Positions 6,633 to 57,898 of a stretch of 64,000 nucleotides of DNA are shown in pieces; the stretch's first letter is position 1, and every line of letters starts with the position of its first letter. The notes below the pieces were generated by a model that searched no databases, was not told where the DNA came from, and saw only the letters and a program-made list of their open reading frames with translations. The stretch comes from Candidatus Nanohalococcus occultus (GTDB taxonomy: Archaea > Nanohalarchaeota > Nanosalinia > Nanosalinales > Nanosalinaceae), in assembly GCF_029207735.1 (NCBI RefSeq), contig NZ_CP104395.1, forward strand, positions 248,001-312,000, in the 5' to 3' direction. The position numbers and the translations under genes are program-made.

Positions 6633-6757
6633 GCCGGGATGGCAGAGTAGTTATGCATCCGCCTGCAGACGTAAACCGAGGGAGTTTGCTCGTGAAGAGA
6701 AATCCATTCGGTTTCGGCTTAAAGCGGACGACCAGGGTGCAAATCCCTGTCCCGGCT
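6633..6757 (+). tRNA. tRNA-Cys (anticodon GCA) with a ~54-nt intron
   Basis: Acceptor arms GCCGGGA (6633-6639) and TCCCGGC (6750-6756) pair perfectly, with discriminator U at 6757 and no encoded CCA. The T arm is CAGGG-TGCAAAT-CCCTG. The anticodon stem TCCGC (6658-6662) pairs with GCGGA (6724-6728). The loop reads CU-GCA-G, then about 54 nt (6669-6722), then A, so the intron sits after position 37, the usual archaeal site. Spliced length is 71 nt. Inside the intron AAACCGA pairs with TCGGTTT, forming a stem. The D-loop reads GUAGUUA, where the usual GG dinucleotide is AG. A TATAAG box near 6560-6570 probably drives it. Exact splice positions are inferred. Confidence 0.88.
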
Positions 6758-12154: not shown

Positions 12155-12304
12155 CTACTCCTGTTTCCTGTGGGTGTGCTTTCTTTTGTTCTTCCAGTTC
12201 TTCTCGCAGCTTCCGCTACAGAAGAACTTTTTGTCTCCCGAGTTGAGAACTAGCAGTTTGCCCTGTGTCTTCCGTGCTTCGTCTCCGCAGTAATCACATT
12301 CCAT
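12155..12304 (-). CDS. rpl24e: Ribosomal protein L24e
   Basis: A 49-residue protein read directly from the minus strand: it begins 'MECDYCGDEARKTQG' and ends 'KNWKNKRKHTHRKQE'. The cysteines in 'CDYC' and 'FFCSGSCEKNW' form the L24e zinc site, and the W/R/K-rich end binds 23S rRNA. The length is near the short end of the archaeal family. The ATG at 12302-12304 lies 6 bp downstream (minus-strand sense) of a two-hairpin element that fills the gap from S28e. Confidence 0.95.
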   Translation of the reverse strand: MECDYCGDEARKTQGKLLVLNSGDKKFFCSGSCEKNWKNKRKHTHRKQE

Positions 12305-12309
12305 TATTC

Positions 12310-12355
12310 GAAAACACCTCGTGTTTTCTTGAATGCCAGAAAATTGTTAATTTTC
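12310..12355 (-). promoter_or_regulatory. Two-hairpin intercistronic element, copy A
   Basis: Two perfect inverted repeats lie side by side between S28e and L24e: GAAAACAC/GTGTTTTC (8 bp, 3-nt loop, 12310-12328) and GAAAATT/AATTTTC (7 bp, 3-nt loop, 12339-12355). An almost identical element lies between L44e and S27e at 57491-57537, also starting 6 bp before the ATG. The shared position in two separate ribosomal operons suggests a functional leader, for example a processing, translational-control or protein-binding site. The mechanism is unknown. Confidence 0.7.
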
Positions 12356-12361
12356 GTCATT

Positions 12362-12538
12362 TTATCCCTCCATCTGTGTTTCTTTGATGTGGACTACGTC
12401 GTCTTCACGAATAGGTCCTCGGGTGTTTCTGACTAGGATCTTTCCTTCTTCGTCGCCTTCAAGGATTCTACATCGGATCTTCCGGACTGTCCGGTGTCCC
12501 TGGTCTCCGATTACTTCAACGACTTTCGCTAAAACCAT
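12362..12538 (-). CDS. rps28e: Ribosomal protein S28e
   Basis: A 58-residue small-subunit protein with an OB-like fold, translated from the minus strand: 'MVLAKVVEVIGDQGHRTVRK' to 'VVHIKETQMEG'. The blocks 'GDQGHR', 'VRCRILEG'-like 'IRCRILEG' and 'ILVRNTRGPIREDD' are characteristic of archaeal S28e (which normally shows RNVKGPVREGD). It follows L7Ae by 2 bp and is cotranscribed with it, as in most archaea. Confidence 0.95.
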   Translation of the reverse strand: MVLAKVVEVIGDQGHRTVRKIRCRILEGDEEGKILVRNTRGPIREDDVVHIKETQMEG

Positions 12539-22337: not shown

Positions 22338-24209
22338 TTAAGATATGTCCAATTCGTCTTTTAGGCTGTTGATGTACATTGTTGCCATTTTGAATCTTCC
22401 TTCCTTCAACTTGTTCTCCGCGAGGTTAAGCTCCAGCTGTTTGTCCTTGATGTTTCCACCTTCATCCTCCAGTTTTGAAAGCGCGTCTTTGACTTCATCC
22501 AGCTCCTTTGAGAGCTTGTGGTATTTTTTGAGTTCTGTGTCTGGTATTTTGTGTGGGTTGTGGTATGTTGGTCTGAAGTCGACGAACCATGGTTCTCCGT
22601 CGTTGTAATTTGAGTTCTGAATCATACCTGTTCCTACGTCTTCGCTGCTGATTCTTTTAGAAAACTGTTCTCCGTATTTTTTCTCTACTCTTTCGATGTC
22701 TTCCATGGATTTGGTTTGCATTTGTATTTCTGTCATGATGTTTCCGGATACTGCTTGTTTGAAGTCTGCTGTGACTTGTGAACACATCATTAGGCCGATT
22801 CCCCATTTTCTGAACTCTCTCGCCCCTTTTTCGAGTGCGTGGTATCCTCCTTGGCCGCCGTAGTCTTCTAGCAGTCGGTGTACTTCGTCGAATACGATGA
22901 ACATTTCTAGGGTTGGACTTTCTTCCCATTCTTTTTCGAATATTTGGTCGATGATGGTTCTTACTGCTTGGTCGAATTCTTCTGTGGTTAATTGGTTTAG
23001 TGTGAATACTGTGATTTCTCCCTCGTTTTTCAACTCCTCAAAGTCAATATCGGGGTTCTCGGAATCGATCTCCTTAATCACGCCTCTGTATGGATGTGGG
23101 TCTGAACTGCTGTCCATGTCGAACCGGTCGTAGTGTTCGAGCAGGTTATCGTCTTTTAGTTCTTTGACGAATCCGGTCCATTGTGCTGTTGGGTCGAATA
23201 CTACGACGGGTATGTCGTTTTCTAGTGCTTCTTCTGCTATTACGTTTGCTGTTACTGATTTACCCGACCCAGTCGAACCTGCTACGATAGCGTGAGTGGT
23301 GAGGTCTTTAGGATTGATGTATGCTGTTTTTTCTGTTTCTGCGACCTTGCCAACTTCGAATAAGTCCTCTCTTTCCGGGAGCTTGCTGTAATCTACGGGG
23401 AAAACGTATCTTGCTTCATCCTTTCGTCGCTGGTGGTACCATCTGAAAGTGTAGACTCCTCCGCCGATTATAGCAGAAACTGCGATGAGAAGTATTCCGG
23501 CCCTGATTCTTGTAGGTGTCCAGAAGGGATTTACAACTGTTAAAGTGTCTGTTGAGGTAACGGTCCGGTTGCCATTGGTGATCGATCCCTGGACATAGTA
23601 CTCTCCTACTGTCAGGTTATCAGGATTCAGACTGTGTTTGTAGGATTTTATGCCGTTGAAGTTTACGGTCCGTGAGGTCTCAACCTGTCTCTGTCCATCG
23701 CTGGAGCTTCTTATCTCATAACTTATAGAAGTATTTACTCTTTCATCTTGGCTGGTTGAGACTACGGAAAGCACTGTCAGGTTCTGATCAGGTCTGATGG
23801 TCTCTGCGGTGGTCTGAATATCCAGTTTGACATCTGCGATATTCCGGTCTATGACTCGTACTCCGAGAGGTATGCTCTGTTCTTGGCTGTCGGTTCTGAC
23901 TGACAATCTGCCTATGTAAAGACCTACGTCAGTGTTGTTAGACGGGTTCAGCTCCACAAGCACGTTTGTCGAACCGTCGGCTGGAACTGAAGCTGTAGGC
24001 TGGATGTCTACAACGTCCCTTATATCGCCCTGAGGTCTCAGTCTGACATCTTCGGACTCATTTCCGTTGTTCAAAATCTCTAAAGTGTATACCTGTGTTT
24101 CTCCACTGAAAACAACGTTCAAAGAAGGTATCTCCTCATTCGCAGATATGTCTGCTGTAGTCGCCCCTGTAAACAAAATCAGTGCTGCTAGTAACGCTGT
24201 CTTCTTCAT
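22338..24209 (-). CDS. Membrane-anchored HerA-like ATPase with short Ig-like ectodomain
   Basis: A 623-residue miniature of the giant neighbour. Residues 1-19 are a signal peptide; 20-225 hold two beta-rich, N-glycosylation-rich domains like CARDB/NEW3; 'AGILLIAVSAIIGGGVYTF' near 240-258 is the single membrane helix; the cytoplasmic part carries Walker A 'GSTGSGKSVTAN', 'VVVFDPTAQW', Walker B 'MFIVFDEVHRLLED' and 'GIGLMMCSQVTADF', as in HerA/VirD4-type hexameric ATPases, then a helical tail. From the linker to the end it is nearly identical to the giant protein, with no length change. It overlaps the giant gene by 4 bp (ATGA), implying coupled, perhaps mixed-hexamer, expression. Confidence 0.88.
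   Translation of the reverse strand: MKKTALLAALILFTGATTADISANEEIPSLNVVFSGETQVYTLEILNNGNESEDVRLRPQGDIRDVVDIQPTASVPADGSTNVLVELNPSNNTDVGLYIGRLSVRTDSQEQSIPLGVRVIDRNIADVKLDIQTTAETIRPDQNLTVLSVVSTSQDERVNTSISYEIRSSSDGQRQVETSRTVNFNGIKSYKHSLNPDNLTVGEYYVQGSITNGNRTVTSTDTLTVVNPFWTPTRIRAGILLIAVSAIIGGGVYTFRWYHQRRKDEARYVFPVDYSKLPEREDLFEVGKVAETEKTAYINPKDLTTHAIVAGSTGSGKSVTANVIAEEALENDIPVVVFDPTAQWTGFVKELKDDNLLEHYDRFDMDSSSDPHPYRGVIKEIDSENPDIDFEELKNEGEITVFTLNQLTTEEFDQAVRTIIDQIFEKEWEESPTLEMFIVFDEVHRLLEDYGGQGGYHALEKGAREFRKWGIGLMMCSQVTADFKQAVSGNIMTEIQMQTKSMEDIERVEKKYGEQFSKRISSEDVGTGMIQNSNYNDGEPWFVDFRPTYHNPHKIPDTELKKYHKLSKELDEVKDALSKLEDEGGNIKDKQLELNLAENKLKEGRFKMATMYINSLKDELDIS
22534..23281 (-). repeat. ATPase module copy 1 with identity tracts to copy 2
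   Basis: Three tracts here are base-for-base identical to the giant gene at a constant offset of 1,868 bp: 22534-22607 (74 bp), 22678-22829 (152 bp) and 23150-23281 (132 bp, including Walker A). Between them the same amino acids are encoded with many synonymous changes. A further short tract lies near the 3' end (about 22354-22395). Confidence 0.9.
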
Positions 24210-56563: not shown

Positions 56564-57315
56564 ACCTTGGAAAACTCGAATGTTCCTTCAAGCTCTTCGG
56601 CTTTCTCCCGGATTGAATCAACGGCTTCGTCCATGCGTTTTTTAGCCAGCTCCGGGTTCCGTCCCCATGCTGTGATCGCATACTTTGGAGCTGAGACATA
56701 CTTTGCCTCGACTGCGTCTCCAAGGTCTTCGAAAGCTTCCCGGATTCTGCGGACTCCATCGCCCTGTTCGAACTCGAGTCTGATCTCTCCTTCGAACTTC
56801 TCCTGTTTCAAGTTGATGTTTTCACGGGCAACTTCTTGGATTGCCTCGACAGTTTTTTCGTCGAACATCTCGAGAAGTCTTTCCTCTTCGCCTACCGAGA
56901 TCTCGAAACCTGTGAATGAAGTTCCGAACTCTTCTTGGAGCTTGAAACCTACTTCTTCGTAGATCTCATCGGTTGACATGTCTAGTTCGTCAGCTAGCTG
57001 TTCTAGGAACGTACTTGCTTTCTTTTCCTTGTTCCAGCGAGCCATTGCGTCTTTTTTCTGTTTTTCGTTAACTCTCTTTAGAGAAAGATTGATCGATCCG
57101 TCGCCGATTTCAATTACCTGTGCGACAGTTTTCTCGCCTTCGCTGAGTTCTTTAGTTACGTCCTGAATCCATGAACGAGCAACTTCTGAGATATGGATAA
57201 GTCCGCGTTGACCTTCGTACTCTTCAAGGTCTGCGTAAGCGGAGTTCTTATCGACGTCAGTGATGCTGACGACTACGTAGTCTCCTTCGTCGGGAGAGTC
57301 CTTGTACCACTTCAT
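56560..57315 (-). CDS. eif2a: Translation initiation factor aIF2 alpha subunit
   Basis: A 251-residue protein; the ATG at 57315 ('MKWYKDSPDEGDYVVV') is chosen since the longer frame reads back into S27e. An S1/OB domain covers residues 1-85 ('GLIHISEVARSWIQDV', 'INLSLKRVN'), followed by a helical domain and a C-terminal alpha/beta domain that contacts the gamma subunit. The beta and gamma subunits are not in this window. It sits in the conserved S27e-aIF2alpha-Nop10 order with 4-bp overlaps on both sides. Confidence 0.95.
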   Translation of the reverse strand: MKWYKDSPDEGDYVVVSITDVDKNSAYADLEEYEGQRGLIHISEVARSWIQDVTKELSEGEKTVAQVIEIGDGSINLSLKRVNEKQKKDAMARWNKEKKASTFLEQLADELDMSTDEIYEEVGFKLQEEFGTSFTGFEISVGEEERLLEMFDEKTVEAIQEVARENINLKQEKFEGEIRLEFEQGDGVRRIREAFEDLGDAVEAKYVSAPKYAITAWGRNPELAKKRMDEAVDSIREKAEELEGTFEFSKV

Positions 57316-57485
57316 TCTGCTGCTAGTTCTTCGACCACGTCTGCTTTTATATCGGCTTTGCCGCCGGTTGGAACAAGCAGTGCTTCTCCGCAAACCATGC
57401 AGTCAACTTTGTTTGACGCACGGGAGTAGACTATCTGCTGGTTTCCGCATTCGTGGCATTCGATTCGTAGAAAGTTCTGTGCCAT
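57312..57485 (-). CDS. rps27e: Ribosomal protein S27e
   Basis: A 57-residue small-subunit zinc protein: 'FLRIECHECGNQQIVYSRAS' then 'VDCMVCGEALLVPTGGKADI'. The four cysteines form the zinc site and 'LxxPTGGKA' is the family end motif. It overlaps aIF2alpha by 4 bp; its ATG at 57485 lies 6 bp after the second copy of the two-hairpin element. Confidence 0.95.
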   Translation of the reverse strand: MAQNFLRIECHECGNQQIVYSRASNKVDCMVCGEALLVPTGGKADIKADVVEELAAE

Positions 57486-57490
57486 TAGTT

Positions 57491-57537
57491 GAGAACACCT
57501 GTGTGTTTTTGGCTATCCTGAAAATTTGTAATTTTCA
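57491..57537 (-). promoter_or_regulatory. Two-hairpin intercistronic element, copy B
   Basis: Between L44e and S27e: a stem GAACAC-type (57491-57510, two mismatch or wobble pairs, 4-nt loop) and a perfect 8-bp TGAAAATT/AATTTTCA stem with a 3-nt loop (57519-57537). Arrangement, sequence and the 6-bp distance to the ATG match copy A at 12310-12355. Confidence 0.7.
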
Positions 57538-57544
57538 TTAGTAT

Positions 57545-57847
57545 TTACCTCTCAATCTCTAGCTTCGCAGCTCTTAGCGGCTCGGAAGGTTTCCATGATT
57601 TACCACATTCGTTACATGTAAACTGTAGGTCCTTCTTCTCGCTTGTAGGATTCTTACGTCCTCTGGATCGGATTGCAGGGTTTTCATAAGGGAATGATCC
57701 ATATCCGTGATCGATCTTTCTCTGCCGTTTCCTAAACTTCTTTTTGAACGGAGAGTCAGATCGGTTAGTAACTTCCTTCACCGTCTGATCGGTATGTTCA
57801 TCACAGTTCGGGCAGTACCGTCTCTGTTCCTTTGGAATCTTTACCAT
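57545..57847 (-). CDS. rpl44e: Ribosomal protein L44e
   Basis: A 100-residue large-subunit protein; the ATG at 57847 ('MVKIPKEQRRYCPNC') matches the family start, while the longer frame has a poor non-ATG extension. Zinc site 'YCPNCDEHTDQ' and 'FTCNECGKSW'; middle 'QRKIDHGYGSFPYENP' (normally RKxxxGYGG). It heads the conserved L44e-S27e-aIF2alpha-Nop10 unit and lies downstream of pyrH with a 50-bp gap. Confidence 0.95.
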   Translation of the reverse strand: MVKIPKEQRRYCPNCDEHTDQTVKEVTNRSDSPFKKKFRKRQRKIDHGYGSFPYENPAIRSRGRKNPTSEKKDLQFTCNECGKSWKPSEPLRAAKLEIER

Positions 57848-57898
57848 AGGTATTGTCAGTCCACTAACCTTTAAAACAATCAACTTCTTGGAAACCGC

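Follow-up and report, generated by a model that had tools for sequence, protein, structure and literature searches.

Two pairs of ribosomal protein genes on the minus strand of the window, by which we mean the whole 64,000-nucleotide stretch of the Candidatus Nanohalococcus occultus genome analysed here, are each separated by a short element made of two hairpins; one copy lies between rps28e and rpl24e and the other between rpl44e and rps27e. The parts of the two copies are as follows.

12362..12538, minus strand: rps28e, upstream of copy 1, stop at 12364-12362; identity from sequence reading.
12366..12371, minus strand: Shine-Dalgarno-like GGAGGG (SD1) in the end of rps28e, 5 nt 5' of the copy 1 small-frame ATG.
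12304..12360, minus strand: copy 1 small open frame, MTKINNFLAFKKTRGVFE, closed by a TAA stop at 12306-12304 that has one base in common with the rpl24e ATG at 12304-12302.
12339..12355, minus strand: copy 1 hairpin 1 (H1), GAAAATT-AAC-AATTTTC, a perfect 7 bp that starts 2 nt past the small-frame ATG.
12310..12328, minus strand: copy 1 hairpin 2 (H2), GAAAACAC-GAG-GTGTTTTC, a perfect 8 bp.
12315..12320, minus strand: rpl24e Shine-Dalgarno GAGGTG (SD2), divided between the H2 loop and the H2 3' arm.
12155..12304, minus strand: rpl24e, downstream of copy 1 (PF01246, E 9.3e-07).
57545..57847, minus strand: rpl44e, upstream of copy 2, with the ATG at 57847 chosen (the mechanical ORF begins at a TTG at 57883); identity from sequence reading.
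57485..57538, minus strand: copy 2 small open frame, MKITNFQDSQKHTGVLN, closed by a TAA stop that overlaps the rps27e ATG at 57485-57483.
57519..57537, minus strand: copy 2 hairpin 1, TGAAAATT-ACA-AATTTTCA, perfect.
57494..57507, minus strand: copy 2 hairpin 2, AACAC-ACAG-GTGTT, a weak 5 bp that is missing from the minimum-energy fold.
57496..57500, minus strand: rps27e Shine-Dalgarno AGGTG (SD2), in copy 2 H2.
57312..57485, minus strand: rps27e, downstream of copy 2, used as the S27e query for relatives; PF01667 is found among element-bearing S27e proteins.

The hairpin pairs that a preliminary description had reported ahead of rpl24e and rps27e are real and lie where it placed them, on the minus strand, with hairpin 2 of copy 2 being weak; the spacing that it gave for copy 1, 7-8 bp from the S28e stop and 6 bp from the L24e ATG, also holds. 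It had overlooked that each copy is a small frame, whose ATG stands at the 5' edge of H1 and whose stop forms part of TAATG, and that the GAGGTG or AGGTG in H2 is the Shine-Dalgarno sequence of the next gene. Taken singly, the two copies fold only modestly better than shuffled sequences (z-scores of -2.3 for copy 1 and -2.2 for copy 2), and the case for the element therefore rests on its repetition. A scan of the 64-kb window against Rfam returned only SRP RNA and a tRNA, the element matching no family above its gathering score. The motif AAAACAC is enriched on the minus strand of the window, probably reflecting codon use in coding sequence. The window also holds a 9409-aa giant surface protein (24206-52435, minus strand), the same size as SVXNc_0300 of Ca. 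Nanohalococcus occultus SVXNc (PMC11001535), and a neighbouring 623-aa ORF (22338-24209) that looks like a duplicate of the C-terminal ATPase region of this protein.

The element recurs throughout this genome and in its relatives. The motif AACACN{2,4}GGTGTT has six occurrences in the genome and none in a reversed control, and five of the six sites directly precede a start codon, namely those of rpl24e, rps27e, rpoA2, gatB/E and rpl10. An exact hairpin pattern that is independent of start codons, GAAAATCN{3,4}GATTTTC, matches about 60 sites spread over 12 of the 19 family genomes, again with none in the reversed control; these numbers, set against zero in the controls, rule out chance. Covariance-model searches, the check that had been proposed at the outset, yielded further instances together with strong covariation: a model built from six copies (R1) gave 22 matches at E<=5 in the Ca. 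Nanohalococcus occultus genome and up to 35 in relatives, several of which had few or none, and a model built from 70 copies (R2) had hits at E<=0.001 in 15 of the 28 genomes of Nanohaloarchaeota. Among 32 distant archaea, R2 returned nothing at E<=0.01, and hence nothing at 0.001, and two matches at E<=0.1. The named relatives in the database are Nanohaloarchaeota, for example SG9 and M3_22; the carriers in this group are tiny, salt-loving, symbiotic archaea.

We read 123 copies. In 91 of them the element ends at a start codon that opens an ORF of 45 aa or more, and a second ORF terminates just before the element, as within an operon. A small open frame is present in 84 of these start-site copies; it is 14-22 codons long, opens at the 5' edge of H1 and closes on the following start codon or next to it. 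A Shine-Dalgarno sequence (SD2) within H2 is present in 89 of the 91; in 72 of the 84, the small frame is preceded by its own upstream Shine-Dalgarno sequence (SD1). The frame begins close to the stop of the upstream gene, often overlapping it, and most frames end at -2 (27), +1 (22) or -3 (18) relative to the next start, so that stop and start overlap or adjoin as TAATG, TGAATG or ATGA/GTGA. When the start was fixed and the remainder shuffled, a mean of 38 copies stopped at these three positions as against the 67 of 84 observed, and a mean of 48 of 84 (maximum 62) stopped anywhere in the accepted range, figures to be read in the knowledge that the search model itself contained the flanking ATGs and that the start was chosen from a 20-nt range. 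Two downstream gene calls were poor: the one at L151 is probably not a gene, and L069 was first given an overlapping ORF, its S27e start being exact. Overall, the arrangement of SD1, a short frame, an internal SD2 and a stop touching or overlapping the next start has the layout of a bicistronic coupler.

Filled and empty junctions could be compared directly. The S27e junctions of two genomes of the same genus (G015 and G008) differ by exactly 57 bp before the ATG, and the rps3 junctions of another congeneric pair (G018 and G016) differ by 57 bp exactly at the ATG; the Shine-Dalgarno sequence used by the gene where the site is empty is that of the small frame where it is filled. The same junction without the element occurs in many relatives. 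On an S3 tree with seven carriers scored, and with genomes G003 and G009 entered as absent although they hold decayed copies, presence at the rps3 site required six gains or losses, no fewer than shuffled labels did. Many sites are common to several genera, and for 26 of the 91 copies the nearest neighbour occupies the corresponding site of a different genome, against 2.4 expected; no near-identical recent copies were seen inside one genome, so that, with so many inherited sites, mobility may be slow or past.

In being very short and multi-copy, with two near-terminal palindromes and no internal transposase, the element resembles the PATEs (palindrome-associated transposable elements) of Haloquadratum walsbyi, which include 52-bp terminal-only forms and show no obvious target duplication (PMC3119063). 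It has two near-terminal palindromes within 50-60 bp and precise filled/empty boundaries. PATEs are tied to IS605-type transposons, whereas no related autonomous transposon, with Y1 TnpA or with TnpB and matching ends, was found in the genomes that carry the element. We rejected an IS200/IS605 MITE: none of the 19 family genomes contains the Y1 transposase (PF01797), and clear TnpB (PF07282) is confined to G004 and G006, both of which are without the element, with none in carriers. The transposase may instead have been donated in trans from the host. A viral vector was likewise rejected, there being one pattern match in 2.9 million viral contigs, with flanks apparently unrelated to the element. 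Both ends of the element carry ATG, and in a check for target duplication the left-flank identity was 1.23 against 0.71 expected, a stretch too short to separate duplication from the need for two start codons. Placement on start codons and a built-in small frame with its Shine-Dalgarno sequence are features of the present element that the consulted part of the PATE account does not report (PMC3119063).

Related hairpins also occur away from start sites. Single hairpins or pairs that lack a Shine-Dalgarno sequence are found in the leader of 16S rRNA (L100, 1276-1336; L164, 615-672), inside RNase P RNA (L113, 1295-1356), in a tRNA intron (L192, ~1501) and adjacent to several tRNA genes, and a hairpin pair, weakly matched, occupies one and the same position within a coding frame in each of two genomes (L175, 1315-1367; L176, 1262-1318). 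These locations fit a palindrome that is tolerated where harm is small. The coding-frame pair resembles an in-frame palindromic insertion, and at L194 (~1501, genome G007) H1 is read as KKISDF early in a coding frame, possibly through fusion of the element to the downstream gene. At G000:C1:799060-799196 (L101) the hairpin pair occurs twice in tandem, with no gene start downstream. A conserved linker between the hairpins, TGTGAACGCA, recurs near tRNA genes (L104, L149, L150, L170 and L181), where it perhaps marks a separate non-coding RNA or tRNA-associated element; the tRNA gene of the window (6633-6757, plus strand) is 125 nt long and hence has an intron, and no GAAAA/TTTTC hairpin pair was seen inside it.

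What persists at start sites is the open frame. Frame 0 is open in 84 of 84 copies by definition of the set, while +1 is open in 16 and +2 in 37, and the hairpins themselves are read in all three frames (32/32/20 copies for H1 and 39/28/17 for H2), with all nine H1/H2 combinations present; it is therefore uninterrupted translation that appears to be kept, and not the peptide. We found five copies with eroded hairpins in which the frame has been kept: three at rps3, with MNEIKSSRRNSQMNHIAKGEVQ in G002, with MSETKRISKRESDL in G003, where the copy is 12 nt shorter than that of its sister G012 and in frame with it, and with MRKSEVVSVIHTQGENQ in G009; one at S27e, with MQDFLITKHKVIR in G016; and one at L24e, with MRNFQRLDHEVNE in G003. 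In all five the frame ends on or touches the next start. That the frame outlasts the hairpins favours the frame, rather than the hairpins, as the object of selection after insertion.

We consider it reasonably likely that the element is a palindrome, dispersed and probably mobile, through which operon genes are bridged by termination-reinitiation. A DNA palindrome of ~50-60 bp with two hairpins, spread by some agent, would insert precisely at start codons between the genes of an operon, and operon-start copies would persist only if they act as translated bridges. A ribosome ending gene A would reinitiate at the ATG of the element, using the Shine-Dalgarno sequence that served gene B before the insertion, translate 14-22 codons across both hairpins, stop at a codon overlapping or touching the start of gene B, and reinitiate there with the help of SD2 in H2; the translational coupling of the operon would thus be kept despite the insert. 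In Haloferax volcanii a gap of 13-14 nt cuts reinitiation by roughly half and one of 22-23 nt abolishes it (PMC10666635), and an untranslated insert of 57 bp should therefore uncouple the genes that flank it; a translated insert with its stop on the next start should not, which would allow the element to be tolerated in essential ribosome operons. What the sequences show directly is the anatomy, the copy number, the precise indel at the ATG, the open frames, the covariation and the enrichment in ribosome operons; it is by inference that the small frame is translated, that ribosomes reinitiate and that some agent moves the element. A more specific version, which we advance tentatively and which falls somewhat short of being probable, is that a mobile palindrome specialised for start codons, with its own start, Shine-Dalgarno sequence and overlapping stop, spreads through the essential ribosome operons of reduced-genome archaea, ribosomes passing along by a chain of termination and reinitiation; it would be a natural, transplantable counterpart of synthetic bicistronic design.

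The identity of the downstream genes bears on an alternative, in which the element is a conserved translational regulator whose H2 hides the downstream Shine-Dalgarno sequence and whose small frame opens it, in the manner of mgtQ, coordinating ribosomal protein synthesis. At least 49 of the 91 downstream genes encode ribosomal proteins by Pfam, and ~53 when the remainder are identified by reading; others, some also identified by reading, include those for RNA polymerase subunits and Spt4 (10), ATP synthase A/B (6), exosome, topoisomerase VI, aIF2 gamma and SufC/U. The preliminary description had proposed a leader-like motif shared by genes for small zinc-ribbon proteins: a repeated structured element does stand before both window genes, but zinc-ribbon proteins are not the common factor, since the genes that follow are for all kinds of ribosomal proteins, RNA polymerase, ATP synthase and others. 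The bias towards ribosomal proteins is nevertheless strong, and simple insertion does not account for it; this bias, the position of SD2 inside H2 in all but two copies and the inheritance of many sites across genera would suit a regulator. Against it, SD2 is not buried in structure to a greater extent than in shuffles (0.47 unpaired, as compared with 0.41), its 5' half lying in the H2 loop in 77 of 84 copies, and sequestration by an mgtQ-type switch was rejected on this ground; an attenuator-like alternative helix between the H1 3' arm and the H2 5' arm, 56% paired and not above slid controls, was rejected as not conserved. Moreover, the junction is empty in many relatives, no gene-specific sequence is shared, and hairpins decay while the frame stays. 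A regulatory switch is accordingly unlikely, and the common regulator or ribosomal-protein binding site envisaged in the preliminary description is not supported.

The pattern of covariation bears on whether the pairing acts in RNA or in DNA. Across 70 copies, 13 of 15 pairs changed on both sides (142 cells), values reached by none of 500 shuffles; double-sided changes affect seven of the eight H2 pairs, H1 pairs covary also, and slid pairings are far worse than the true hairpin pairing. Beside 975 Watson-Crick cells there are 13 G-U and 14 A-C, whereas a small control on tRNA acceptor stems gave eight G-U and one A-C; because G-U is not commoner than A-C, unlike in a selected RNA helix, the pairing looks DNA-level, and the covariation of the arms points to DNA palindromes with Watson-Crick pairing. 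An RNA-processing or mRNA-end-protecting site, with a nuclease cutting between the hairpins, would be in keeping with the related hairpins in the tRNA intron, leaders and RNase P RNA and next to tRNA genes, but the absence of favoured G-U pairs is not what an RNA helix would predict, and a cut would break a small frame that 84 of 91 copies retain and that outlives the hairpins; we regard such a site as improbable. Much the same doubt attaches to the possibility that template-switch repair of DNA palindromes is the sole source of the covariation, the repeats having neither role nor mobility and spreading by gene conversion between junctions with a Shine-Dalgarno sequence and ATG. The equality of G-U and A-C counts would be in keeping with it, and the G000 rpl24e copy is nearest to the rpoA2 copy of the same genome; however, it leaves the frames that stay open after hairpin loss and the precise 57-bp indel at start codons unaccounted for. 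Scarcely credible is a family of functional small peptides or arrest peptides whose frames precede ribosomal genes, for although C-termini such as KTRGVFE and NRGGDF recur and the rpoA2 copies of three genera keep MTKF....FLAF.(K/E)T.GV.E, KTRGVF is a consequence of the hairpin and Shine-Dalgarno sequence, a hairpin of this kind yields ENTEVFS in the L24e copy of G007, and a conserved small peptide was rejected because the hairpin frames switch.

A termination-reinitiation bridge has counterparts among known systems. Rickettsia palindromic elements likewise consist of palindromic repeats that translated sequence can accommodate because they keep an open frame (PMC10969869), but they are ~150 bp long and form in-frame fusions inside genes, whereas here a separate small frame lies between genes and the hairpins are read in three frames, without the within-gene fusion and conserved peptide of the Rickettsia type. 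Archaeal and bacterial termination-reinitiation overlaps such as ATGA and TAATG (PMC6728339, PMC10666635) have the same geometry as the 3' end of the small frame, and often its 5' end, but join two ordinary genes, whereas here a repeated, transplantable palindrome supplies the overlap. Bicistronic design (BCD) cassettes (PMC5995908) similarly place a short leader frame ahead of the target gene, and are synthetic. The mgtQ frame of Salmonella (PMC8092293) is also small and intercistronic and frees the ribosome-binding site of the next gene, but is one regulated locus with a sequestered site, whereas the natural copies here number dozens and show no clear sequestration. Ribosomal-protein leader autoregulation similarly involves structured RNA 5' of ribosomal protein genes; the present element differs in having no gene-specific binding site, in also preceding unrelated genes and in matching no Rfam family in the window. 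We found no description of a self-bridging palindrome placed on start codons among the open-licence papers searched.

Directional RNA-seq exists for strain SVXNc (PMC11001535). The element adds dozens of small frames per genome, likely unannotated, and is a possible natural template for coupling cassettes in haloarchaea. Its decayed copies, in which hairpins are lost and the frame is kept, amount to a natural experiment that asks whether selection maintains coupling by termination-reinitiation. For these archaea, an insert at up to dozens of ribosomal operon junctions per genome, places thought to tolerate little, appears to be a problem solved by translation.
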